Source: an uncultured Lachnospiraceae bacterium
Lineage (GTDB): Bacteria; Bacillota; Clostridia; Lachnospirales; Lachnospiraceae
Assembly: GCA_947564645.1 (NCBI GenBank)
Contig: CANOCU010000036.1
Coordinates: 1-37,484, forward strand
DNA length: 37,484 nucleotides
Reading direction: 5' to 3'
Under the pieces are notes generated by a model. The model was not told the origin of the DNA and searched no databases. It was given only the letters and a program-made list of their open reading frames with translations. This document shows, piece after piece, positions 3,875-15,607 of this stretch. Each line of letters begins with the position of its first letter. Position 1 is the first letter of the stretch. Both the position numbers and the translations under genes were made by a program.

Positions 3875-5518
3875 ATGGGTTTGTATCTGAACAGTAAGAC
3901 ACCATATGACATGTTTAAGAAAATAACCGGAAATCCTTATTTTGTTGATAAATCTTTGCTGTTAGCGGAACTTTTTCCCTCTTTTGACAGTATCAACTGT
4001 TATTGTTGTATTACAAGGCCGCGTCGGTTCGGTAAGACGACCGTAGCAAATATGGTGGGTGCTTTTTTTGGTAAAACAGACAGAAAAGACAGGCTATTTG
4101 ATGATCTGGCGATTTCAGAAAATTTGGAATATAAATCTCATTTGAACAGACATGATGTTATCTCTATTGATTTCAGCAGAGCACCTAAGGGCTGCAAAAA
4201 TTATGAGCAGTATATAGCCCGCATTGAAAATGGGATCTTAGAAGATTTGGTTGCTGCTTATCCGGATTGTGATATCAGGCAGGAGGATTCTGTCTGGGAT
4301 GCTTTGCAGAAAGTATATGAGCATACAGATAAAAGATTTCTGTTTGTATTGGATGAATGGGATGCTGTTTTTCATATGCCATTTATCTTAAAGGAAAACA
4401 GACAGGAGTATCTTCTTTTTTTAAAATGGCTGCTCAAGGATCAGTCCTATGTGGAATTTGTATATATGACAGGAGTTCTTCCAATCGCAAAGTATTCGAG
4501 TGGTTCCGAATTGAATATGTTTACGGAATACGATATGGCGACATCGGAGAAATTCAGTGAATATTTTGGGTTTTCTGATGCGGAGGTGGATCATCTTTAT
4601 CATATTTTTGAAAAGAAAGTAGAAATTTCTAAATTCAGTCGCGATGAACTGCGTGTCTGGTATGACGGATATTATACGGCTACAGGTATGAAATTATATA
4701 ATCCGCGTTCTGTTGTCCTGGCATTAACAGATAACCAGCTTCGTAATTATTGGACCAGCTCGGGGCCATATGATGAGTTATTTTATTATGTTCAGAATAA
4801 TATTGAAGAAGTAAGGGACGATCTGGTGCTCATGGTTTCAGGAGAACGTGTTTCGACCGATATTGGACAATTTTCGGCTTCTTCAATGGAAATTCATTCC
4901 AGGGAGCAGATTTATTCGGCTATGGTAATCTATGGCCTTTTAACTTATATAAGGGGAGAAGTTCTGATTCCAAATAAGGAATTGATGGATAAATATAATG
5001 AACTTCTTTTATCCAGAGATTCTCTTGGATATGTCTATCGCCTTGCAAGAAAATCGGAACAAATGCTCCAGGCGACAATAGCAGGAGATACGAAAACTAT
5101 GGTGGAAATCCTTCAGTTCGCGCATAATACGGAGTCTCCTGTTCTATTGTATAATAATGAAGTCGAATTGTCTGCTGTTGTGAATCTGTGTTATCTCTCT
5201 GCACGCAATAAATATCTGGTTGAGCGTGAAGATAAGGCCGGTAAAGGATTTGTTGATTTTATTCTGTATCCGAAACACAGGGATGACGACTGTATCATTC
5301 TTGAATTGAAAGTTGACAGTACGCCGGAAGAGGCCATCAGGCAGATTAAGGATAAAGATTATATTCTACGGTTCAAGGGAAAATTAGTCGAGGAAAGACT
5401 CTATACCGGGCGGATACTGGCTGTGGGAATCAGCTATAGCAGACAGACGAAAGAACACAGCTGTAAGGTAGAAATTTTGGAGAATTGTTTAGACGGATCC
5501 GTATATTTATCAGATTGA
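3875..5518 (+). CDS. AAA-ATPase-like protein with C-terminal PD-(D/E)XK nuclease domain
   Basis: The 547-residue protein has the architecture of the AAA-ATPase_like / PDDEXK_9 family (formerly DUF1703), which is expanded in gut Clostridia and Bacteroides. The N-terminal part has a Walker-A-like RPRRFGKTT (residues 48-56) and a Walker B ending in D160-E161 (FLFVLDEWDAVF). The C-terminal part shows a nuclease-like signature of D461 in GFVDFILYP and E477-x-K479 in ILELK. An AAGGAG ribosome binding site precedes ATG 3875. The cellular role of the family is not established; ATP-driven nucleic-acid cleavage or mobile-element involvement is inference. A diverged paralogue lies at 33265-34935. It is transcribed alone. 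Confidence 0.85.
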   Translation: MGLYLNSKTPYDMFKKITGNPYFVDKSLLLAELFPSFDSINCYCCITRPRRFGKTTVANMVGAFFGKTDRKDRLFDDLAISENLEYKSHLNRHDVISIDFSRAPKGCKNYEQYIARIENGILEDLVAAYPDCDIRQEDSVWDALQKVYEHTDKRFLFVLDEWDAVFHMPFILKENRQEYLLFLKWLLKDQSYVEFVYMTGVLPIAKYSSGSELNMFTEYDMATSEKFSEYFGFSDAEVDHLYHIFEKKVEISKFSRDELRVWYDGYYTATGMKLYNPRSVVLALTDNQLRNYWTSSGPYDELFYYVQNNIEEVRDDLVLMVSGERVSTDIGQFSASSMEIHSREQIYSAMVIYGLLTYIRGEVLIPNKELMDKYNELLLSRDSLGYVYRLARKSEQMLQATIAGDTKTMVEILQFAHNTESPVLLYNNEVELSAVVNLCYLSARNKYLVEREDKAGKGFVDFILYPKHRDDDCIILELKVDSTPEEAIRQIKDKDYILRFKGKLVEERLYTGRILAVGISYSRQTKEHSCKVEILENCLDGSVYLSD

Positions 5519-5628
5519 TTGAATAATTCTGTATATTTTTCCATTTTTTTTTATTTCTTTTTGTAGTCTGTGCCTTATTTTTATATAAAGAAGCCTGTCC
5601 GATGTTTTTAGACACAAAATATCAGTGA

Positions 5629-5657
5629 TTGACATTGTAAAAATGTGGATGTAGAAT
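5629..5657 (+). promoter_or_regulatory. Strong promoter for the amt-PII / purF transcript
   Basis: A perfect TTGACA (5629-5634) is followed after exactly 17 bases by TAGAAT (5652-5657). The predicted transcript start is about 5664-5666, giving a leader of about 200 nt before the amt start codon. The first hairpin begins only about 10 nt after that start site. Confidence 0.65.
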
Positions 5658-5675
5658 AAGACCGTATCAAGCAAA

Positions 5676-5706
5676 GGCGCTGTGGATAATTCCGCGGCGT
5701 CTTTTT
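5676..5706 (+). terminator. Intrinsic-terminator-like hairpin 1 in the amt leader
   Basis: GGCGCTGTGGA (5676-5686) pairs with TCCGCGGCGTC (5691-5701) through 11 base pairs, including G-U wobbles, around a TAAT loop. Five T follow (5702-5706). It may end transcription from the upstream gene. Because it also lies just downstream of the 5629-5657 promoter, it may instead act as an attenuator. Confidence 0.65.
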
Positions 5707-5722
5707 ACATAGTGGGAAAGCA

Positions 5723-5772
5723 GGACAATGGGGTTTTGTGAAAAAATAAAGAGCCCGGATTGTCCTTTTTTT
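5723..5772 (+). terminator. Intrinsic-terminator-like hairpin 2 in the amt leader
   Basis: GGACAAT (5723-5729) pairs perfectly with ATTGTCC (5759-5765). A GGG/CCC extension lies inside a large loop, and seven T follow directly (5766-5772). Two terminator-like structures in tandem between a strong promoter and the gene suggest conditional antitermination. The large loop makes this one weaker than the first. Confidence 0.5.
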
Positions 5773-5862
5773 ATGAAAGTATCTGATAACAGCAGTTGTA
5801 AGCTGAATTGTTACAGTATCTGTTTTCCCGTATGTAAAGAAAAAGAAGAGGAGGAGATAGAT

Positions 5863-7626
5863 ATGGATGAAATGATGAGTTTTGTCAACGAACAGGTCTT
5901 TGGAGTCTGGTTCCTGATCGGCGCGGCATTGGTATTCTGGATGCAGGCCGGTTTCGCGATGGTGGAGGCTGGTTTTACCAGAGCGAAGAACTCGGGTAAC
6001 ATTATTATGAAGAATCTGATGGATTTCTGTATCGGTACGGTGATGTGGTTTCTGATCGGCGCCTCCCTGATGCTTCCGTCAGCGGGCGGCGATATTATGG
6101 GCGTCATCGGTACACCGGGATTCGGTGTGTTTACGGATTATGCGGATTTCAGTTATTCGGGATTTGTGTTCAATCTGGTGTTTTGTGCGACGACCGCTAC
6201 GATCGTGTCAGGATCGATGGCAGAGAGAACGAAATTCTCTACCTACTGTCTGTATTCCGCGATCATATCCGGTATCATCTATCCGATCGAAGCACACTGG
6301 ACATGGGGCGGCGGTTTTCTGGTAGACATGGGCTTCCACGATTATGCCGGTTCCAACTGTATCCATATGGTAGGCGGTATCTGTGCCCTGATCGGTGCGG
6401 CTATGCTTGGTCCCCGTATCGGAAAGTTTACGAAGGATAAAGACGGTAAGATCACGAAGGTCAATGCTTTCCCGGGCTGTAACCTGGTCATCGGTTCTCT
6501 GGGTGTGTTTATTCTCTGGCTTGGCTGGTATGGTTTCAACGGTGCGGCGGCGACGGATATTCCTACGCTTGGAAGCGTATTTCTTACCACTACGGTGGCG
6601 CCGGCAGTGGCTACGGTAGTATGTATGATCTTTACCTGGTTGAAATACGGTAAGCCGGATGTTTCCATGTGTCTGAATGCGTCTTTGGCCGGTCTGGTGG
6701 CGATCACCGCGCCCTGTGACGTAACGGATTGTGTGGGTGCGGCAGTGATCGGTGCGGTTTCCGGTGTTCTGGTGGTATTTGGTGTATGGTTTGTGGATAA
6801 TGTGCTGCATGTGGACGATCCGGTTGGTGCGGTGGCAGTGCATATGTTTAACGGTATCTGGGGAACCATCGCGGTAGGTCTTTTTGCTACGTCGTCTGCA
6901 CCGGGATTCGAACTGGCAGGTATTAAGGAAGGCCTTTTCTATGGCGGCGGTCTGCAGCAGCTTGGCCTGCAGATGATCGGTATATTTATCACGGCGGCCT
7001 GGACGGTTGTGACGATCACGATCGCATTCCTGATCTTAAAGAAAACGGTCGGTCTTCGTGTCAGCGAGGAAGAAGAAATCGTCGGTCTGGATGCCATGGA
7101 GCATGGTCTGGCATCTGCTTATTCGGGATTTAGTATCATGGATGTGTCTAACACGATGATGATGTCAGTCAATGAGAACACCGATCTTGGCAATGATGAT
7201 TATGTGACGGCTTCCGATGCCATGAAGAATGCGGCGGTTCCTGTTGTGAAACAGCCTCATGTCTCAGCTTCCGATATTTATAAGGTTGTTATTATTGCCA
7301 AACTGAGTCGTTACGATAAACTGAGAAAGGCTATGAACGATCTTGGCGTGACCGGTATGACGGTGACACAGGTTATGGGATGTGGTATCGAAAAAGGTTC
7401 CGGTGAGAAGTATCGTGGTGTCGAAGTGGATGCGACTCTGCTGCCGAAGGTGAAAGTGGAAGTTGTGGTTAGCGCCATTCCTGTAGATGATGTGATCGAA
7501 GCGGCGAAGAAAGTGCTTTATACGGGACGTATCGGAGACGGTAAGATCTTCGTATATGATGTTGACCGTGTGGTGAAGATCAGAACCGGGGAAGAGAACC
7601 AGGCGGCATTGCAGGATGTTGAGTAA
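5863..7626 (+). CDS. amt: Ammonium transporter fused to a PII signalling domain
   Basis: The first 415 residues form an Amt/MEP/Rh channel with about 11 TM segments, opening FGVWFLIGAALVFWMQAGFA. The likely pore twin histidines are H145 (AHWTWGGG) and H327 (VHMFNGIWG). After a linker, residues 470-587 form a complete PII protein (GlnB/GlnK type) with a T-loop (506-525), a B-loop TGRIGDGKIFV and a C-loop RIRTGEE-like end. It imports ammonium, and the tethered PII presumably gates the pore according to 2-oxoglutarate and ATP/ADP. In the T-loop, Y517 matches E. coli Tyr46, but the uridylylation position Tyr51 is V522, so control by uridylylation is unlikely. The start is ATG 5863 behind GAGGAGGAG. 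purF follows 24 bp downstream in the same transcript. Confidence 0.9.
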   Translation: MDEMMSFVNEQVFGVWFLIGAALVFWMQAGFAMVEAGFTRAKNSGNIIMKNLMDFCIGTVMWFLIGASLMLPSAGGDIMGVIGTPGFGVFTDYADFSYSGFVFNLVFCATTATIVSGSMAERTKFSTYCLYSAIISGIIYPIEAHWTWGGGFLVDMGFHDYAGSNCIHMVGGICALIGAAMLGPRIGKFTKDKDGKITKVNAFPGCNLVIGSLGVFILWLGWYGFNGAAATDIPTLGSVFLTTTVAPAVATVVCMIFTWLKYGKPDVSMCLNASLAGLVAITAPCDVTDCVGAAVIGAVSGVLVVFGVWFVDNVLHVDDPVGAVAVHMFNGIWGTIAVGLFATSSAPGFELAGIKEGLFYGGGLQQLGLQMIGIFITAAWTVVTITIAFLILKKTVGLRVSEEEEIVGLDAMEHGLASAYSGFSIMDVSNTMMMSVNENTDLGNDDYVTASDAMKNAAVPVVKQPHVSASDIYKVVIIAKLSRYDKLRKAMNDLGVTGMTVTQVMGCGIEKGSGEKYRGVEVDATLLPKVKVEVVVSAIPVDDVIEAAKKVLYTGRIGDGKIFVYDVDRVVKIRTGEENQAALQDVE

Positions 7627-7650
7627 TCGGGATATCGATATGGAGATTTT

Positions 7651-9072
7651 ATGAGTATACATGAGGAATGCGGGGTATTCGGGATCATTTCGCCACAGAG
7701 AACGGATGTGGCAGGTCTTGCTTACTATGGTCTGTATGCATTGCAGCACCGGGGACAGGAAAGCTGCGGGATCGTGATCAATGATGACGGTGTGTTTTCA
7801 TCTTATAAGGATCTGGGACTTGTCAGTGAGGTTTTCGGTGCGGATATCCTGTCCGGTCTGCCGCAGGGGAATATGGCTGTCGGGCATGTCCGCTACGGGA
7901 CGACAGGTGGTAACAGCCGTAACAACTGCCAGCCTGTTGAAGTCAATCATCAGAAAGGGAAAATGGCGCTTGCCCATAACGGTAACCTCAGCAATGCAGC
8001 AGAATTACGTAATATGCTGGAATTATCCGGAGCGATCTTCCATACTACCAGCGATACGGAGACGATCGCTTATATCGTGACGAGAGAACGGCTGCGGACG
8101 CCTTCTATAGAGAAGGCGGTCAGCGCCGCCATGCACACATTGGAAGGCGCCTATTCTCTTATACTGATGTCGGCACAGAAGCTGATCTGCGCAAGGGATC
8201 CTTATGGTTTCCGTCCTCTCTGTTATGGTAAAATGCCGGACGGTTCGTTTGTGGCTGCCTCGGAGAGTTGTGCATTAAGAGCGATCGGAGCTGATTTTGT
8301 GCGGGATATCGAACCGGGTGAGATTCTTGTGTTTGGGCCCGACGGGATTGTATCCCACAGGGAGCATTGCAGACAGAGAGAGAAGAAGCTTTGTATCTTT
8401 GAATATATCTATTTTGCGAGGCCGGATTCGGTGATCGATGGCGTGTCGGTTCATGGCGCGAGAATGGAAGCCGGAAGGATACTGGCCAGAGAACATCCGG
8501 TATCGGCCGATCTCGTAGTCGGCGTGCCGGATTCCGGCTTAGATGCGGCGCTTGGCTTTAGTATGGAATCGGGGATTCCCTATGAGATCGGTTTGATCAA
8601 GAATAAATATATCGGCAGGACTTTTATCTCGCCGGGACAGAACATGAGACTGGATCAGGTGAAGATTAAATTGAGCGCTGTGGAAGAAAGTGTCAGGGAC
8701 AAGAGGATTGTTCTGATCGATGATTCCATTGTGCGTGGTACTACCAGCGGCCGTATTGTCAGGCTGCTTCGGGAAGCCGGAGCAAAAGAGATTCATATGC
8801 GTATCTCTTCGCCGCCTTTTCTGCACCCCTGTTACTATGGAACGGATATTGATTCTGAGGAAAATCTGATTGCCTGTCATCACAGCGTAGAGGAGACGGC
8901 TCAGATCATCGGTGCGGACAGTCTGGGATATCTGCCGGTAACAGAACTTGGTTCCATGATCGGAAACTGCGGCTATTGTAGCGCCTGTTTCGATGGGGAT
9001 TATCCGACGACAGTGCCTGTAGATACAAGGAAAGACAGATTCGAACGGAAATTGTCAGAAAGATATTTGTAA
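7651..9072 (+). CDS. purF: Amidophosphoribosyltransferase (first step of de novo purine synthesis)
   Basis: The enzyme transfers glutamine-derived ammonia to PRPP, making 5-phosphoribosylamine. The N-terminal MSIHEECGVFGI has a short propeptide before the nucleophile C7, as in the Bacillus-type enzyme. The glutaminase domain (SYKDLGLVSEVF, GHVRYGTTG) is followed by the PRPP-binding motif VLIDDSIVRGTTSG (354-367) and a C-terminal GNCGYCSAC with C440, C443 and C446. That cluster fits the Fe-S form, although not every ligand was verified. The 473-residue length is normal. It lies 24 bp after the amt-PII stop, and a terminator follows. The pairing puts ammonium uptake and a glutamine-consuming step under one promoter. 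Confidence 0.95.
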   Translation: MSIHEECGVFGIISPQRTDVAGLAYYGLYALQHRGQESCGIVINDDGVFSSYKDLGLVSEVFGADILSGLPQGNMAVGHVRYGTTGGNSRNNCQPVEVNHQKGKMALAHNGNLSNAAELRNMLELSGAIFHTTSDTETIAYIVTRERLRTPSIEKAVSAAMHTLEGAYSLILMSAQKLICARDPYGFRPLCYGKMPDGSFVAASESCALRAIGADFVRDIEPGEILVFGPDGIVSHREHCRQREKKLCIFEYIYFARPDSVIDGVSVHGARMEAGRILAREHPVSADLVVGVPDSGLDAALGFSMESGIPYEIGLIKNKYIGRTFISPGQNMRLDQVKIKLSAVEESVRDKRIVLIDDSIVRGTTSGRIVRLLREAGAKEIHMRISSPPFLHPCYYGTDIDSEENLIACHHSVEETAQIIGADSLGYLPVTELGSMIGNCGYCSACFDGDYPTTVPVDTRKDRFERKLSERYL

Positions 9073-9259: not shown

Positions 9260-12200
9260 ATGCTTGACAGATGTAGGAAAATTATTAGAAAAATTACAGG
9301 CTATATTGTAGATAAAATGATACAGCACCATGATAACGTTCGTTGGATCGATCTTATGGGTTTATTTGTAAGTGCGCTTACATTGACAACTTATTGTACG
9401 ATAAGTCCGATCCTTGCAGAATATCAGGGAAAAAAGGTAGTTTACTGGACCGCGGTCGTCGCAATAGTTATCATGCTTTTAATTGCGATATGGGATTTTA
9501 TCTGTCTCGTGGGATATAATACCTGGAATCGTATATTTGTCTGTTTTAGCACTTTGAAAAATAAAATTACAATTCATTTTAATAGATATAAAAAATCTTC
9601 TCAATGGATGTTTATCTTGTTGATCATAAGCATAACGGCAGCAGGTATCTGGGTTCTCCTCCTGCAAGTACACAAAACAGAGTATTATGCTTCTATAGTC
9701 GAAGTTTATGGTATTCCCGTTGGCGTAGGAGAACCAATGACTTCTGAAGAGAGAAAGTCATGTTCAAATTATTGGAAGATTGAAGATTATCTGTTTCAAA
9801 GATGTATGATTCTGACTTATGGGGATTCTTATCATCAAAATGAGATCATAAAAGAGTATTCCAGTCTTTATAATATGACTTTTTTTCAGCCTGCTGACCG
9901 TATGATCTATAAATATAGAAGAAATAAAAGTAAATTTCTTTCGCTTAATGATGAGAATGCATATATGGCGGCAAATGACAATAAATTTCGTGAACCTATA
10001 GAGATATCTTATTTTAGCGGTAACGGAAAACTGTTGTTAAAATTAAAGAAAAAGGATGATTGTGATGAATTTAGTATTTTACAATATTCTTCGGACAATA
10101 TGCCGCAGCTTCTTAATTCTACATTGTTGCGAATACCATCGAATGAGGAGGAATGGATAAAAGAAAATAACGGAGAACAGATTTTTAGCGAAGATGGAGA
10201 TATCTTTGGTGAAAACAAAGATGAACAGATTTCCAGAAACGCAGTTGAAAATTCTATTCTGTTACAACAGTTAGAGGTTAGCTATAATTCTGATGGTCTG
10301 CCGGAAACACGCAGAATAAATCCCCGTGTTTATAATCTTTATGGTGTAAATGGGGAGCGATATATTTATGATCATAATAAACAACTTACCACACTGTATT
10401 ATCTGGATATTAATGGCAATCCTGTCTGTAATCGATTAGGAATTATGATGGTTTCTTTCGAATATGGAGAAGATAACAGGCTGGCAAGTATCCGATATTA
10501 CAGCGATGAGAATGGAACGGAAAAGATCGAGGGATTCAATAAGGTCTTCTGTGAGAAATATGCATATGATGCAGATGGTAACCTCTGTCAAAGAATGCAG
10601 TTAAGCCGTAATGAAAACAAATGGTATGATAAGAACGAAGTATGTGAGTATCAATATGTTTATGATCATGGCAGGCTGATTCGGGAAACTTTTCTGGATG
10701 TCAGCGGAAATCAGATCCGTAAAAAGAAACTCAAAAGTACTTCATTAGAATATTGTGAGGAGATAAAAGAAAACGGGAAAAAAATGATCACGGTTTCTTT
10801 TGATTCTGTTGTAACTTCGGTAAGGCAAAATACATCGATTACAGTAGTGGACAAGGAAAGTAAGAATAATAAAAAAGAAGATGCGATGCCTGTTATGGCA
10901 TATTCTCCGGTAAATGAGGAAAGTGAAGAGAAGAAGGATAATAAAACAGAAGATAATGATTTTGTAAAGAATGATGATGTTTTAGATAAGCAAGAAAGGG
11001 ATGATACATTTAGTTTAGAAGGTGAGGGGCAGGAAGAAACTTCAAATATTATTAAAATAGATCTGGAAGAAGAAAATGAAACTTCCAGGGCTTATACATC
11101 TGTCTGCTATTTTTTTGATCCGGATAAAAGAATTGCGGAGACAAGTTATTATAATGGAGAAGATAAGGTATTAAATGAAGATGGATTTTTCAAAAAGAGA
11201 ATAGAATATGACTCTGGATTGCGTGTGGAAAGAAAATTATATTTTAATGAGAAAGACGAAGCTTGTGTGATTAATGGAGGATATTCACAGGTAAATATGA
11301 TTTACGCTTCAGAGCAGGGCGATGTAAAGGAGAGAATAGAATATAGAGATAAAGATGGAGGTTTGACTATAAATACAAAAGAAGAATATGGTTATTCCTA
11401 TGTAACATATAAGCCATATGATGAAGCGGAAAACCAAAATCATAGTACCATTCTTCTGGAATATTATGATCAAGATCAAAAATTAATATGTCTTCCGGAA
11501 AAAGGCTATTCTAAGATCAGACAGACATACAATAAAAGCGGCTTTTTAATTCGGGAATCTTATTTTATTGAAGATGACGACAGGAAAGAATCTCCTGCAT
11601 ATCGGAAAGATTATATGGTGGCAGAGATTGCTTATGAGTATTCGGATGACGGAAACCGGACCTGTATAGAATACAGGGATGATTCGGGTAATCCAATTAA
11701 TCGGCATGATACGGGTTATGCGATGATCTATCAGGAATTTGAATCCGGTCATCTGGTAAGAGTTTATTATAAAGGATATAAAGATCAGATTTTGATGGAT
11801 GTACCGGATAAAGAGACAGGCATAGCATCCGCCAGATATTTATTTGCAAATGGCAGAAAAAAAGAAGACCGGTATTTTGATACAAAAGGGGCTCCTGTTT
11901 TACGGAGTGACTTTGGTTACGCGGTACAAAAGTATGAATATAACAACAGGGGTTTGATCTCAGGAAGATCTTTTTATGGTACGGATGATAATCTGATTGT
12001 ACGTAAAGATACGGGATATGCTGCTATTCAATATGAATATGACGAATTGGACCGTCAAATCCTGTGTCATTTTTATGGTGAGGATCGTAAAAGTATTATT
12101 AGTTTGCAGTATTACTGTGCCGGTGTGCAGTATCAATATGATGATAAAGGAAATAAGACTGATATTCGGTATTTGGATAAAAACGATAATCTGATGCTGC

Positions 12201-14878
12201 GTATTGATCTTGGATATGCATGGATACAGAGAAAGTATAATGAAGATGGAAAAATTATAAAAGAGACTTTTCTTGATCAGGATCAAAATCTGATTGAAAG
12301 TAAAGAAGGAGGTTATGCTTCTTATACGGGTATATATGAAGATAAAAACCTGATTAGGACAGAATATAGAAATAAGGACGGCAATCTGGTATTGAGAAAA
12401 GATACAGGTTATGCTGTTGCTGCGTATGAGTACAATGATAAAAATAATATCGATAAATGTACAGAAGTATATTATTATGGCGAAGATGGTAAAAGTCCTG
12501 TTATCAGTACAAAGTATCATTGTGCCGGTTTTCAGTATGAGTACGATGAGAAAAATAATCAGGAAATAGTATGGTATCTTGATTTTGATTATAAAGATGG
12601 TGATCTGATCTATCGTAATATGATTCGCAGTGATCTGGGATATGCGAAAGTATGTAAGAAGTATGATAATTTTGGGAATTTAACAGGTGAATCTTACTTT
12701 GGAATGGAAGTGGAAGGAAAAGTAGAACCTGTTTTATGCAAAGAGGGAGGTTATGCTTCCTTTGAAGATCGATATAATAAGAATGGATATTGCGATCGGA
12801 ATCTTTATAAAAACACAGAAGGTAAGCTGGTATTGAGAAAGGATACGGGTTATGCGGCAGCTGAATACAAATTTGATGATTTTGGAAGATGTATCTGGGT
12901 TGCCTATTATGGAACCAAATATGATCCAGAATTGGAGATCGATCATGAAAATAATCAAGATGCGCTTATTATCTGTACAAAATATGGATGTGCCGGATTT
13001 CGATATCAATATGATGAGGTTGGGAACAGAACTGATATTATCTATATAGGTACAGACGGAAAAGTTATGATGCGCAGGGATCTCGGGTATGCAAGGATAC
13101 ATAGAGAGTATGACAGTTATGGAAATATGATAATAGAATCTTATTATGATTCAAATAATAACTTAACTGTATGTAATGAATATGGATATGCCGTCTGTGA
13201 AAATGTATTTCGAAATGGAAAATGCATAGAATCTCGTTATTATGATACGAGTGGTGATCCGGTTTTGCGGAAAGATGAGGGATATACAGTTAGAAAAATA
13301 CAGTATGATCTATTGGGACAAAAGATTTCCGACTCTTATTATGGCATTGACAAAAGACCTGTCCTAAATACGAAATATAAATGTGCAGTGATTGAATATG
13401 AACATGACCGAATGGGAAATGAAACAGATATCAGATATAAAGACGCTCATGGAAATCTGATGATTCGCAGTGATCTTGGATATGCTCATGTGAGAAAAGA
13501 ATATGATGCCAGAGGAAATGTGATAAAGGGATATTACTATGATACCGAAGAAAGACTTACATTACATAAAGACAGTGGGATTGCCTGCTTTATAGATAAG
13601 TATGATAATAGGGGTAATTGGAGATTAGGAGAAAATTATGGTAAAAACAGAGAATTAAAGATTCGTAAGGATAGAGGTTATGCTGTTACCGAAATTTTTT
13701 ATGATAAATATGGACAACGTGAAAAAGAATATTTTTATGGATTGGATGGAAAAACACTTATTTTCAGTCCGGAATATCTTTGTGCTGGTTTTGAATATCT
13801 ATATGATGCATATGGGAATCGTGAAAGTATTACCTATATTGGCTTAGATTACAAACCAATGAACGGTCTTAATCTTAATTATTCACAGGAAATTATAGAG
13901 GTTAAGTATGACAGTTCACAGAATCTGGAAACAAGAAGTGGTTACTTCTTGGATAGTGATGGTAATTTCGCTAAAAGAAAAGGGCGCGGTTACATTGGCT
14001 ATGAAGATGTTTATCAATTTGGAAATTGGGTAAAGAGCAGTTTTTATGAACAATGGGGAGGTGAAGAGAAAAAATTAACGCTTCGGGAAGATGAAGGTTA
14101 TGCGGTCATAGAAAGAGAGTTTGATCAATACGGAAATTTGATAAAGGTATTTTATCGCAATGCTGAAAATGAACTCATAATTCTTCAGGAAAAAAACGAG
14201 ATGACATGTGCCGGATATGTATATGAATATGACGAAAAGGGAAACAGGATAGACATTCAGTATTTAGATGCAGATAATACTTTGATGACTCGTAAGGATT
14301 TGGGGTACGCACAAGTATGTATCGAATATGATGATCAGGGTAATAAGATAGAAGAGAGATATTATAGTATGGAGCATAAACCTGCTTTGTATAAGAAAGG
14401 AGGATATGCATCTTATGATCTAATCTATGAAAATGGATGCTGTGTAGAGACAAGGTATTATGATGAAAAGAAGAATTTAGTATTGCGCAGCGATGAAAAT
14501 TATGCAGTCCAAAAAGAAAAATTTGATGTATTTGGACAGTGCATTTTATCTTCTTATTTTGATACTGAAGATAAACCGGTCATAAACACGAGGTTTTGTT
14601 GTTCTACATTTGAATACAGGTATGATGAATTAGGTAATAAAACGGATATTATTTATAGAGGTACAGATGGCAACATAATGATCCGTGAGGATCTTGGTTA
14701 TGCATGGATTGAACGAAAATATGATGACTGGGGACGGATTAAAGTAGAGAGATACTATGATACGGAAAAAAATCCGGTTACTGATAAGAATGGATGTGCA
14801 GAACTGAGATATGAATATAACAAGTGGGGAATCGACACAGTAAGATATTTTGATCTGAATGGAGTGGAGATTCATTGA
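9260..14878 (+). CDS. Giant membrane-anchored YD-like repeat protein (1872 residues, function unknown)
   Basis: A basic N-terminus is followed by three TM helices (about 30-53, 60-85, 115-137). By the positive-inside rule the remaining ~1730 residues lie outside the cell. They consist of YD-like units of about 33 residues, typified by GYAxxxxxYDxxGNxxxxxYYDxxGxxVxRxD. From about residue 920 the units form a higher-order array whose Cys-Ala-Gly-type block recurs at Cys 953, 1088, 1244, 1375, 1508, 1650 and 1781. An acidic, apparently disordered insert (about 527-610) splits the repeat domain. YD/RHS repeats in other proteins build beta-shells or carry toxins, but no C-terminal toxin or RHS core (DPxGL) motif is seen; the end is simply another repeat. 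Base composition is clearly AT-richer than that of neighbouring genes. A membrane protein gene follows after 21 bp. Confidence 0.8.
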   Translation: MLDRCRKIIRKITGYIVDKMIQHHDNVRWIDLMGLFVSALTLTTYCTISPILAEYQGKKVVYWTAVVAIVIMLLIAIWDFICLVGYNTWNRIFVCFSTLKNKITIHFNRYKKSSQWMFILLIISITAAGIWVLLLQVHKTEYYASIVEVYGIPVGVGEPMTSEERKSCSNYWKIEDYLFQRCMILTYGDSYHQNEIIKEYSSLYNMTFFQPADRMIYKYRRNKSKFLSLNDENAYMAANDNKFREPIEISYFSGNGKLLLKLKKKDDCDEFSILQYSSDNMPQLLNSTLLRIPSNEEEWIKENNGEQIFSEDGDIFGENKDEQISRNAVENSILLQQLEVSYNSDGLPETRRINPRVYNLYGVNGERYIYDHNKQLTTLYYLDINGNPVCNRLGIMMVSFEYGEDNRLASIRYYSDENGTEKIEGFNKVFCEKYAYDADGNLCQRMQLSRNENKWYDKNEVCEYQYVYDHGRLIRETFLDVSGNQIRKKKLKSTSLEYCEEIKENGKKMITVSFDSVVTSVRQNTSITVVDKESKNNKKEDAMPVMAYSPVNEESEEKKDNKTEDNDFVKNDDVLDKQERDDTFSLEGEGQEETSNIIKIDLEEENETSRAYTSVCYFFDPDKRIAETSYYNGEDKVLNEDGFFKKRIEYDSGLRVERKLYFNEKDEACVINGGYSQVNMIYASEQGDVKERIEYRDKDGGLTINTKEEYGYSYVTYKPYDEAENQNHSTILLEYYDQDQKLICLPEKGYSKIRQTYNKSGFLIRESYFIEDDDRKESPAYRKDYMVAEIAYEYSDDGNRTCIEYRDDSGNPINRHDTGYAMIYQEFESGHLVRVYYKGYKDQILMDVPDKETGIASARYLFANGRKKEDRYFDTKGAPVLRSDFGYAVQKYEYNNRGLISGRSFYGTDDNLIVRKDTGYAAIQYEYDELDRQILCHFYGEDRKSIISLQYYCAGVQYQYDDKGNKTDIRYLDKNDNLMLRIDLGYAWIQRKYNEDGKIIKETFLDQDQNLIESKEGGYASYTGIYEDKNLIRTEYRNKDGNLVLRKDTGYAVAAYEYNDKNNIDKCTEVYYYGEDGKSPVISTKYHCAGFQYEYDEKNNQEIVWYLDFDYKDGDLIYRNMIRSDLGYAKVCKKYDNFGNLTGESYFGMEVEGKVEPVLCKEGGYASFEDRYNKNGYCDRNLYKNTEGKLVLRKDTGYAAAEYKFDDFGRCIWVAYYGTKYDPELEIDHENNQDALIICTKYGCAGFRYQYDEVGNRTDIIYIGTDGKVMMRRDLGYARIHREYDSYGNMIIESYYDSNNNLTVCNEYGYAVCENVFRNGKCIESRYYDTSGDPVLRKDEGYTVRKIQYDLLGQKISDSYYGIDKRPVLNTKYKCAVIEYEHDRMGNETDIRYKDAHGNLMIRSDLGYAHVRKEYDARGNVIKGYYYDTEERLTLHKDSGIACFIDKYDNRGNWRLGENYGKNRELKIRKDRGYAVTEIFYDKYGQREKEYFYGLDGKTLIFSPEYLCAGFEYLYDAYGNRESITYIGLDYKPMNGLNLNYSQEIIEVKYDSSQNLETRSGYFLDSDGNFAKRKGRGYIGYEDVYQFGNWVKSSFYEQWGGEEKKLTLREDEGYAVIEREFDQYGNLIKVFYRNAENELIILQEKNEMTCAGYVYEYDEKGNRIDIQYLDADNTLMTRKDLGYAQVCIEYDDQGNKIEERYYSMEHKPALYKKGGYASYDLIYENGCCVETRYYDEKKNLVLRSDENYAVQKEKFDVFGQCILSSYFDTEDKPVINTRFCCSTFEYRYDELGNKTDIIYRGTDGNIMIREDLGYAWIERKYDDWGRIKVERYYDTEKNPVTDKNGCAELRYEYNKWGIDTVRYFDLNGVEIH

Positions 14879-14899: not shown

Positions 14900-15607
14900 A
14901 TGGTAACTAATGGGATCCGAAGAATAAATTCATTGGATAAGAACAAAGAATATATTAAAATACTAAAAAACTGTGTTATTTTTATCTGTTTTGGATTTGT
15001 TTTAAAAATTATTTTTTATCTGATAGGATGTGAATGCATCAATACCGACAAAAAGTTTTTTATTGATACCGGTAATGAAGCATTTATCAATCTTGGAAAT
15101 GAGATATTTACTGTTATCTGCATTTTGTCTATCATTTTTGCATTTGTTAAGATTATTGTTCTTGCGAAAGATGGATTTTTTAGTAGTATTATGATAGATG
15201 GCGCAGATACTATCGAAGTGAACAGAAAACAATCTAATTGCTTTTTTGTAATTTCAATCGCTGCGTGCATTGTAGGATTCATTTTAATCCTGATCAGTGT
15301 TATTTTGATTTCGATCGAAGGTGGAGAAGTTATAAATTTCTTGTTAGTTTTAGCCGGTATTATATCAGAGATCACAGCGGTAGGTTTTTTGGTGGTGTAC
15401 AACAAAAGCATTGATCAAATAAACGTACTGCATAAACTCATGATCAGGAAAGAACAATATCATTTTCTGATCAATGAAGTAGATAAACTACAGGATAATA
15501 AAGAAGAGCTGATCATGAAGCTTGTAGAAAATATGTTGAAAGACAACGGAGAAGAATTAAAAAATAAAAAACCTGTAAAGGAGGATCATAATAAATCGGA
15601 TACCTGA
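14900..15607 (+). CDS. Four-TM membrane protein, TRADD-N-associated-TM-like (partner of the giant repeat protein)
   Basis: The 235-residue protein has TM segments at about 23-43, 68-88, 113-138 and 146-166, then a cytosolic helical tail (168-215) and a charged end. The segment from TM3 through YNKSIDQINVLHKLMIRKEQ resembles, from memory, the two-TM domain that Pfam calls TRADD-N-associated (CyanoTRADDas_TM), found in bacterial conflict and self/non-self proteins: a pair of helices with GIxxE, then a YNKxxxQxNxxH helix. This is a motif-level inference. It starts at ATG 14900 behind AAAGGAGAAGG, 21 bp after the giant repeat gene, so the two form an operon. Its end overlaps the convergent radical SAM gene by 22 bp. 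Composition is AT-rich like its partner's. Confidence 0.75.
   Translation: MVTNGIRRINSLDKNKEYIKILKNCVIFICFGFVLKIIFYLIGCECINTDKKFFIDTGNEAFINLGNEIFTVICILSIIFAFVKIIVLAKDGFFSSIMIDGADTIEVNRKQSNCFFVISIAACIVGFILILISVILISIEGGEVINFLLVLAGIISEITAVGFLVVYNKSIDQINVLHKLMIRKEQYHFLINEVDKLQDNKEELIMKLVENMLKDNGEELKNKKPVKEDHNKSDT

Follow-up and report, generated by a model that had tools for sequence, protein, structure and literature searches.

An ordered four-unit cycle in a giant, probably membrane-anchored YD-like repeat protein of Lachnospiraceae

Background

Toxin cages and the teneurin scaffold are the main settings in which YD repeats are known. Rhs effectors, TcB-TcC and teneurins (RHS_repeat, PF05593; TIGR01643) have in common a hairpin unit with a YD...GN motif and a continuous sheet. 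In teneurins, as described in passages of PMC6425310, the YD part is surrounded by an NHL propeller, an FN-plug and a core. Here we analyze a gene for a repeat protein of 1872 residues (P0001) in a DNA stretch of 37,484 nucleotides, referred to as the window, from an uncultured, gut-type Lachnospiraceae bacterium (contig CANOCU010000036.1 of assembly GCA_947564645.1). P0001 shares the hairpin unit and the continuous sheet with the three described systems, and its family has a profile match to them at the sequence level. In contrast to them, it is built of 33-residue units in a four-type cycle and has a predicted N-terminal membrane anchor, while a core, a propeller and a toxin were not found in it. 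Searches of open-access literature for YD repeats with Lachnospiraceae, TIR or membrane terms, and for CyanoTRADD, yielded nothing on this architecture.

Four-unit cycle of the repeat array

Four unit types, termed A to D, succeed one another in the window protein in an order that exceeds chance, and six other genes of its family in the same genus show this order too. Besides the window gene, the family includes one gene in G465 (the L014 contig of an uncultured Lachnospiraceae metagenome-assembled genome, whose ortholog P0003 is 73% identical to P0001), two in G032 (G032a and G032b), and a single gene in each of G436 (2015 aa), G437 (2500 aa) and G452, where contig ends interrupt it. Substitution-score autocorrelation over residues 641-1872 of P0001 peaked at lag 33 (z 7.0), as expected for the YD-like units of about 33 residues described in the original prediction, and at lag 131 (z 4.1), within the period of about 130-155 residues for which a self-comparison had been proposed. 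The units had been said to make up most of the protein; this holds for its later part but not for residues 1-360, which comprise three transmembrane (TM) stretches and a non-repeat domain. The ordered cycle, placed earlier from about residue 920, is opened by a D unit at residue 919 and is borne out by lag 131, by unit shuffles and by the phase shared between genes. Its seven cysteines lie exactly where they had been listed (Table 1), at spacings of 135, 156, 131, 133, 142 and 131 residues. Seven Cys units are therefore present as claimed, although they correspond to only six complete cycles and a partial seventh. In the window array, insertions interrupt the second cycle, and the B and C units of the fifth are degenerate; the hidden Markov model (HMM) of the units, made from P0001 plus three homologues, missed this B unit and scored the C unit at 3.1 bits.

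With A anchored on its Cys and B, C and D set by spacing, 164 of 267 units were phased. Their consensus sequences are -CAGF.YEYDE.GN.tdi.YiGtDGklMvR for A, GYAqe.yEYD..GN.I.esYlD.eGnPai.K for B, GYAsYe..YDerGnw.E.RYYD..GnlVLRk for C and GYAVvr.eYDdYGq.iSeyYYGtdg.Pvi for D. The offset-four similarity observed in the window protein (29 units) was reached by 30 of 10,000 unit-order shuffles, and that of P0003 and the family proteins P0005 and P0006 (30, 34 and 30 units) by 2, 0 and 0 of 10,000, respectively; the test was confined to units from residue 850 onward with at least 20 residues and at least 3 bits. The effect is modest in the window, with an identity of 0.369 at offset four versus 0.26-0.30 at offsets 1-3 and 5-7, and strong in G437 (0.68 versus 0.33-0.39). 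Periods of two, three, five, six and eight units were rejected, as all fell below four in P0001, P0003 and P0005; in P0006, a period of two equals a period of four (0.270 versus 0.269). Across the seven genes, the nearest unit in another family gene was of the same phase for 139 of the 164 units, compared with a mean of 41 and a maximum of 62 in 1000 label shuffles, the window and L014 genes being taken as one group and the two G032 genes as two.

Since the phase is kept between family genes, the cycle predates the split of those genes. The DNA of the G437 gene contains a 402-bp tandem unit (134 codons, four units) in 8.6 copies at 80% match (Tandem Repeats Finder), which shows the four-unit block to be the unit of duplication. 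The same program detected no tandem repeat of four-unit length in the window array; the cycle is therefore old there and can be seen only in the protein. Cys-type units number 4 to 13 per gene (G452 piece included), and the six complete family proteins are 1872-2500 aa long. The shared phase is stronger evidence for selection on unit order than the first reading could offer.

Every A unit found in the window, L014, G032a, G436, G437 and the G452 piece retains its Cys, but in G032b Ser takes its place at three A units; the search at this position covered Cys or Ser. Cross-links through the regular cysteines, suggested originally, are unproven. With one hairpin per unit, a flat sheet would place successive cysteines about 40 Angstrom from each other, which disfavors disulphides between sequence neighbors.

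Relation to known YD-repeat proteins

In an AlphaFold (AF2) model of residues 1197-1545 (349 of 1872, about ten units), each unit forms one beta-hairpin and the hairpins join into a continuous sheet, the outcome anticipated for a structure prediction. The best structural matches of this model (VIA-align, Foldseek) are the YD sheets of the Rhs core, Tc and teneurins. Its TM-scores to YD shells, for the roughly ten units modeled, were 0.1-0.4. A family profile has one match in the PDB at E<=0.01, the Rhs protein RhsA. The YD_repeat_2x model (TIGR01643) exceeds its cut-off in P0005 and P0006, two of the four proteins scanned with NCBIfam (P0001, P0003, P0005 and P0006), and both are without a Pfam match. 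P0001 and P0003 have no curated YD or RHS match in Pfam or NCBIfam, and RHS_repeat reaches E 0.087 in G436, below the cut-off; the Pfam scan covered the same four proteins plus G436 and G437. Taken together, the structural matches and the YD_repeat_2x hits in family members indicate that P0001 is a divergent YD-repeat protein. This runs against the distance from RHS and teneurin repeats implied at first, and what was initially an unexplained super-fold is now better read as a surface array of divergent YD repeats. In line with the earlier observation on the RHS core and toxin tail, Pfam and NCBIfam detected in P0001 no RHS-associated core with a self-cleavage site, no C-terminal toxin domain (none was seen in the sequence either), and no NHL propeller, FN-plug or teneurin-type core. 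The units of P0001 run to the C-terminus, and they reach near it in six family genes and in the G452 piece, G032b having a charged tail of about 35 residues.

Family distribution and selection

The repeat family was found in 6 of 77 same-genus genomes (2 of 61 in the first search). A profile of the membrane-proximal part and early units matched 13 of 392 genomes drawn from the order, and the other family genomes are not among these 13; outside its own genome the matches fell only within profile positions 113-325, largely the YD part. Of 28 candidate stretches from a scan of genome contigs, one, L014, proved to be a relative. The motif that opens the membrane-proximal domain follows the last membrane segment in all seven family genes, with S in place of the first Y in G452.

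The repeat gene is under purifying selection: the ratio of nonsynonymous to synonymous substitution rates (dN/dS) between P0001 and its L014 ortholog is 0.171 overall, an estimate that rests on one pair, the NG86 method and a dS near 1. By region, the ratio is 0.093 (residues 141-500), 0.144 (851-1872), 0.267 (641-850), 0.336 (1-140) and 0.394 (501-640), compared with 0.268 for the downstream gene P0002 and 0.081 for a neighboring radical-SAM gene. The strongest constraint lies in the membrane-proximal region, residues 141-500, which the original prediction did not single out.

G+C content was considered as a sign of transfer. It is low in the window gene (0.344 versus 0.434 and 0.463 in the flanks) and in L014 (0.347 versus 0.434), within 0.01 of the flanks in G436 and G437, and above them by 0.015 in G032a, 0.03 in G452 and 0.10 in G032b; no conclusion on transfer was drawn. 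Carriage on mobile elements was considered and rejected. A plasmid scan gave no match for P0001, two records for P0005 (20-22% identity) and ten for the part of the TIR fusion L044 after its TIR domain (22-26%), all too distant to place; these ten are large proteins of the surface type from cyanobacteria and other organisms, and one of them carries the annotation of an RHS-associated core. In a phage scan P0001 had a single match (25%), to a record that lacks annotation, and three runs over viral contigs, each with two peptide patterns (the same two in two runs), gave no match.

Gene layout and protein parts

Table 1. Features of the repeat gene and its downstream neighbor in the window
Feature	Coordinates	Strand	Basis
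Giant YD-repeat membrane protein (P0001, window protein), complete open reading frame (ORF), 1872 aa	9260..14878	+	ORF translation
Three predicted TM stretches, residues 35-53, 66-84, 117-135	9362..9664	+	Hydropathy
Membrane-proximal non-repeat domain, about residues 142-360, opens with Y....E.[YF]G[IM]P.G.G	9683..10339	+	Motif in 7/7 family genes
Degenerate YD units, residues 367-500	10358..10759	+	Unit HMM
Charged linker, weak conservation, residues 501-610	10760..11089	+	Alignment; dN/dS 0.39 for 501-640
Irregular YD-like units, residues 612-918	11093..12013	+	Unit HMM
Regular array, residues 919-1868: D, six A-B-C-D cycles, then A, B, terminal unit	12014..14863	+	Unit HMM, shuffles, phase matching
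A unit 1, Cys 953	12116..12205	+	Unit HMM
A unit 2, Cys 1088	12521..12610	+	Unit HMM
A unit 3, Cys 1244	12989..13078	+	Unit HMM
A unit 4, Cys 1375	13382..13471	+	Unit HMM
A unit 5, Cys 1508	13781..13870	+	Unit HMM
A unit 6, Cys 1650	14207..14296	+	Unit HMM
A unit 7, Cys 1781	14600..14689	+	Unit HMM
P0002, 235 aa, four TM stretches, PF20712 (CyanoTRADDas_TM) at residues 108-173; probable partner	14900..15607	+	Pfam, hydropathy

The N-terminal ~140 residues of P0001 contain three hydrophobic stretches, and their second loop is rich in K/R, which by the positive-inside rule suggests an N-in, C-out topology. By the same hydropathy criteria G437 and G032b have four stretches each and G436 has two, which makes this topology tentative. 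For the membrane-proximal domain, the predicted structure was useless (pLDDT 32) and a PDB sequence search gave 0 matches at E<=1. Cystinosin hits to the TM part (best E 0.099) were set aside as generic membrane similarity. A promoter and terminator scan upstream of the repeat gene found nothing.

Between a flavin reductase gene and the repeat gene, positions 3875-9072 of the window hold AAA-ATPase_like/PDDEXK_9, Amt-PII and PurF-like genes. The second is a single ORF for an ammonium transporter with a P-II domain fused at its C-terminus (5728-7626), directly followed by the PurF-like gene (7651-9072). Unlike the window, L014 has the flavin reductase gene directly before the repeat gene. A ThsA_Macro (Thoeris) gene (L016:12725-13645) is situated some 1.4 kb away from the repeat gene G032b.

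Downstream gene P0002 and co-occurrence

P0002 starts 21 bases after the stop of the repeat gene and matches PF20712 at 1.9e-11 (44.3 bits versus a gathering cut-off of 24.3). This family (CyanoTRADDas_TM) stems from work on TRADD-N conflict systems, and SLATT proteins are thought to perforate membranes. TRADD-N systems are described in PMC8195603, in passages that do not mention the PF20712 domain. The match over the cut-off is what P0002 shares with CyanoTRADDas_TM and SLATT-like two-TM proteins; it differs in that a TRADD-N or other domain was not found on it and in having a YD array as its probable partner. P0002 has no SLATT match, and its relatives in G452 and G437 reach 13.9 and 18.4 bits, weak scores against the SLATT_1 cut-off of 41. 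PADLOC reported nothing for P0001 or P0002.

The repeat gene and a PF20712 gene are adjacent in three species: the window, L014/G465, where P0004 in the same position is 55% identical to P0002, and G452, where the relative (L113:855-1448) directly follows the C-terminal piece of the repeat gene. PF20712 occurs in 5 of the 77 genus genomes, four of which are among the six with the repeat family (hypergeometric P = 5.4e-5, a value that assumes independence, which does not apply to these genomes). Neither G032 nor G436 has PF20712 in its genome. In G437 the PF20712 gene sits on a different contig from the repeat gene, close to an HsdR-like ORF (L114), and the one in G442, a genome that lacks the repeat family, lies near an AAA-ATPase ORF (L115); both neighbors were named by eye.

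TIR fusions and other YD-like arrays in Lachnospirales

Two Lachnospirales proteins, L044 (G322) and L045 (G111), consist of a TIR domain (TIR_2 at 4.5e-16 and 2.4e-17), one TM stretch, a membrane-proximal stretch and YD-like units. They share with P0001 the membrane anchor, a similar membrane-proximal motif and the YD-like units, and L044 has its second autocorrelation peak at lag 130. The difference is the TIR domain before the membrane stretch; Pfam found none in P0001. An hhalign comparison with the family membrane-proximal domain (five of seven members) aligned 48 columns at E 0.0051 and a probability of 7%, with a score of 23.2 where 60 column shuffles gave 17.9 at most, and another run on the membrane-proximal part gave 32 columns (E 0.031, probability 1.6%). 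When 383 genomes of the order were searched with the TM and following stretch of the TIR proteins, the two came up again and no third full match appeared; YD units alone occurred in 10 further genomes, the window's own among them. Just downstream of the L045 fusion gene, L045:2256-3059 (minus strand, other frame, 268 aa stop to stop) also encodes YD-like units.

YD-like units were further found on VanZ-type proteins (L053 and L055) and, as judged by eye, on multi-TM proteins and on polymerase-like ones (L046, L048 and L050-L052). Similar to P0001, these arrays have 32-33-residue units on a membrane protein; the placement of an array on a membrane protein is the common denominator of all these hosts. 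They differ in the membrane part, in a two-unit alternation where present, and in having 5-16 units; lag 64 leads in L050, L051 and L052 (three of four tested). Super-periods are thus not unique to P0001, lag 64 being first or tied in L047, L049, L050, L051 and L052. In L053:2569-4026 and L055:2668-3921 the units are placed before a C-terminal VanZ domain. L047 (G286, contig 82) has about 27 nearly uniform 32-residue units with lags 32, 64, 96 and 128 about equal, and it provides a natural contrast to the window protein.

Functional interpretation

On balance we favor P0001 as a membrane-anchored, envelope-exposed YD-repeat recognition or adhesion array and not a toxin-delivery cage. Judging from the hydropathy segments, its N-terminus would lie in the membrane and be followed by the conserved membrane-proximal domain. 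From the YD-type hairpins of the 349 modeled residues and the four-unit cycle, we infer that about 30 beta-hairpins, arranged in blocks of the four types, make up a single long and continuous sheet. Such an array would then offer a recognition or adhesion surface (for a glycan, a neighboring cell or a phage) on a structural scaffold, and would lengthen and shorten by whole four-unit blocks, as the block duplication in G437 suggests. Purifying selection and the failure to detect an RHS core or a toxin tail are consistent with this reading. P0001 is possibly also the sensor half of a two-gene membrane module, with coupling to P0002 where that gene is present.

A more specific alternative, which we regard as rather unlikely, is a two-gene membrane immunity module in which the YD array detects a threat to the envelope and sets off P0002, which damages the membrane, a TIR domain in the same chain taking the effector place in relatives (a Toll-like layout). 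It draws on the PF20712 score, the adjacency in three species, the overlap of the two families (both in 4 of 77 genomes), the membrane-proximal stretch that L044 and L045 may share with the family, the HsdR-like and AAA-ATPase neighbors of the unpaired PF20712 genes, and the weak SLATT_1 likeness of the G437 and G452 proteins. However, three of the seven repeat genes (both in G032 and that in G436) occur in genomes without PF20712, the G437 copy is unlinked, G442 lacks the repeat family, and the co-occurrence test ignores relatedness. The low hhalign probability, the absence of a third TIR-TM-YD protein in the 383 genomes searched, the negative PADLOC result for both proteins and the lack of a SLATT match in P0002 weigh against it as well. 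That the system is a bacterial counterpart of Toll-like receptor logic, in which a giant extracellular YD array, diversified through duplication of four-unit blocks, senses a threat and a membrane-damaging TRADD-N-associated TM partner acts in trans, or a TIR domain in cis in relatives, seems unlikely.

P0001 might instead bind no specific ligand and serve only as a structural stalk or spacer at the surface, with the number of blocks determining its length. The block-wise length change in the family agrees with this, but a plain spacer would not need unit types that are kept apart from gene to gene as they are here (139 of 164 units), and the membrane-proximal part is the most conserved; we consider this explanation unlikely. 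An Rhs-type polymorphic toxin or cage protein with a lost or swapped toxin tail would account for the YD-type fold and sequence matches, yet it is very improbable given that no RHS-associated core or toxin family was found in the scanned family members, that the units reach near the C-terminus, and that the N-terminal membrane anchor and purifying selection argue otherwise. A recognition or adhesion role fits best.

In contrast to toxin cages and teneurins, YD repeats here would form membrane-anchored arrays, the cage-closing parts not having been found. The ordered four-type cycle is both old and the unit of duplication, and it may serve as a natural case for studying the influence of super-periodicity on a beta-sheet. 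The gene pairing and the TIR relatives offer direct tests of whether YD arrays act as surface receptors in bacteria.
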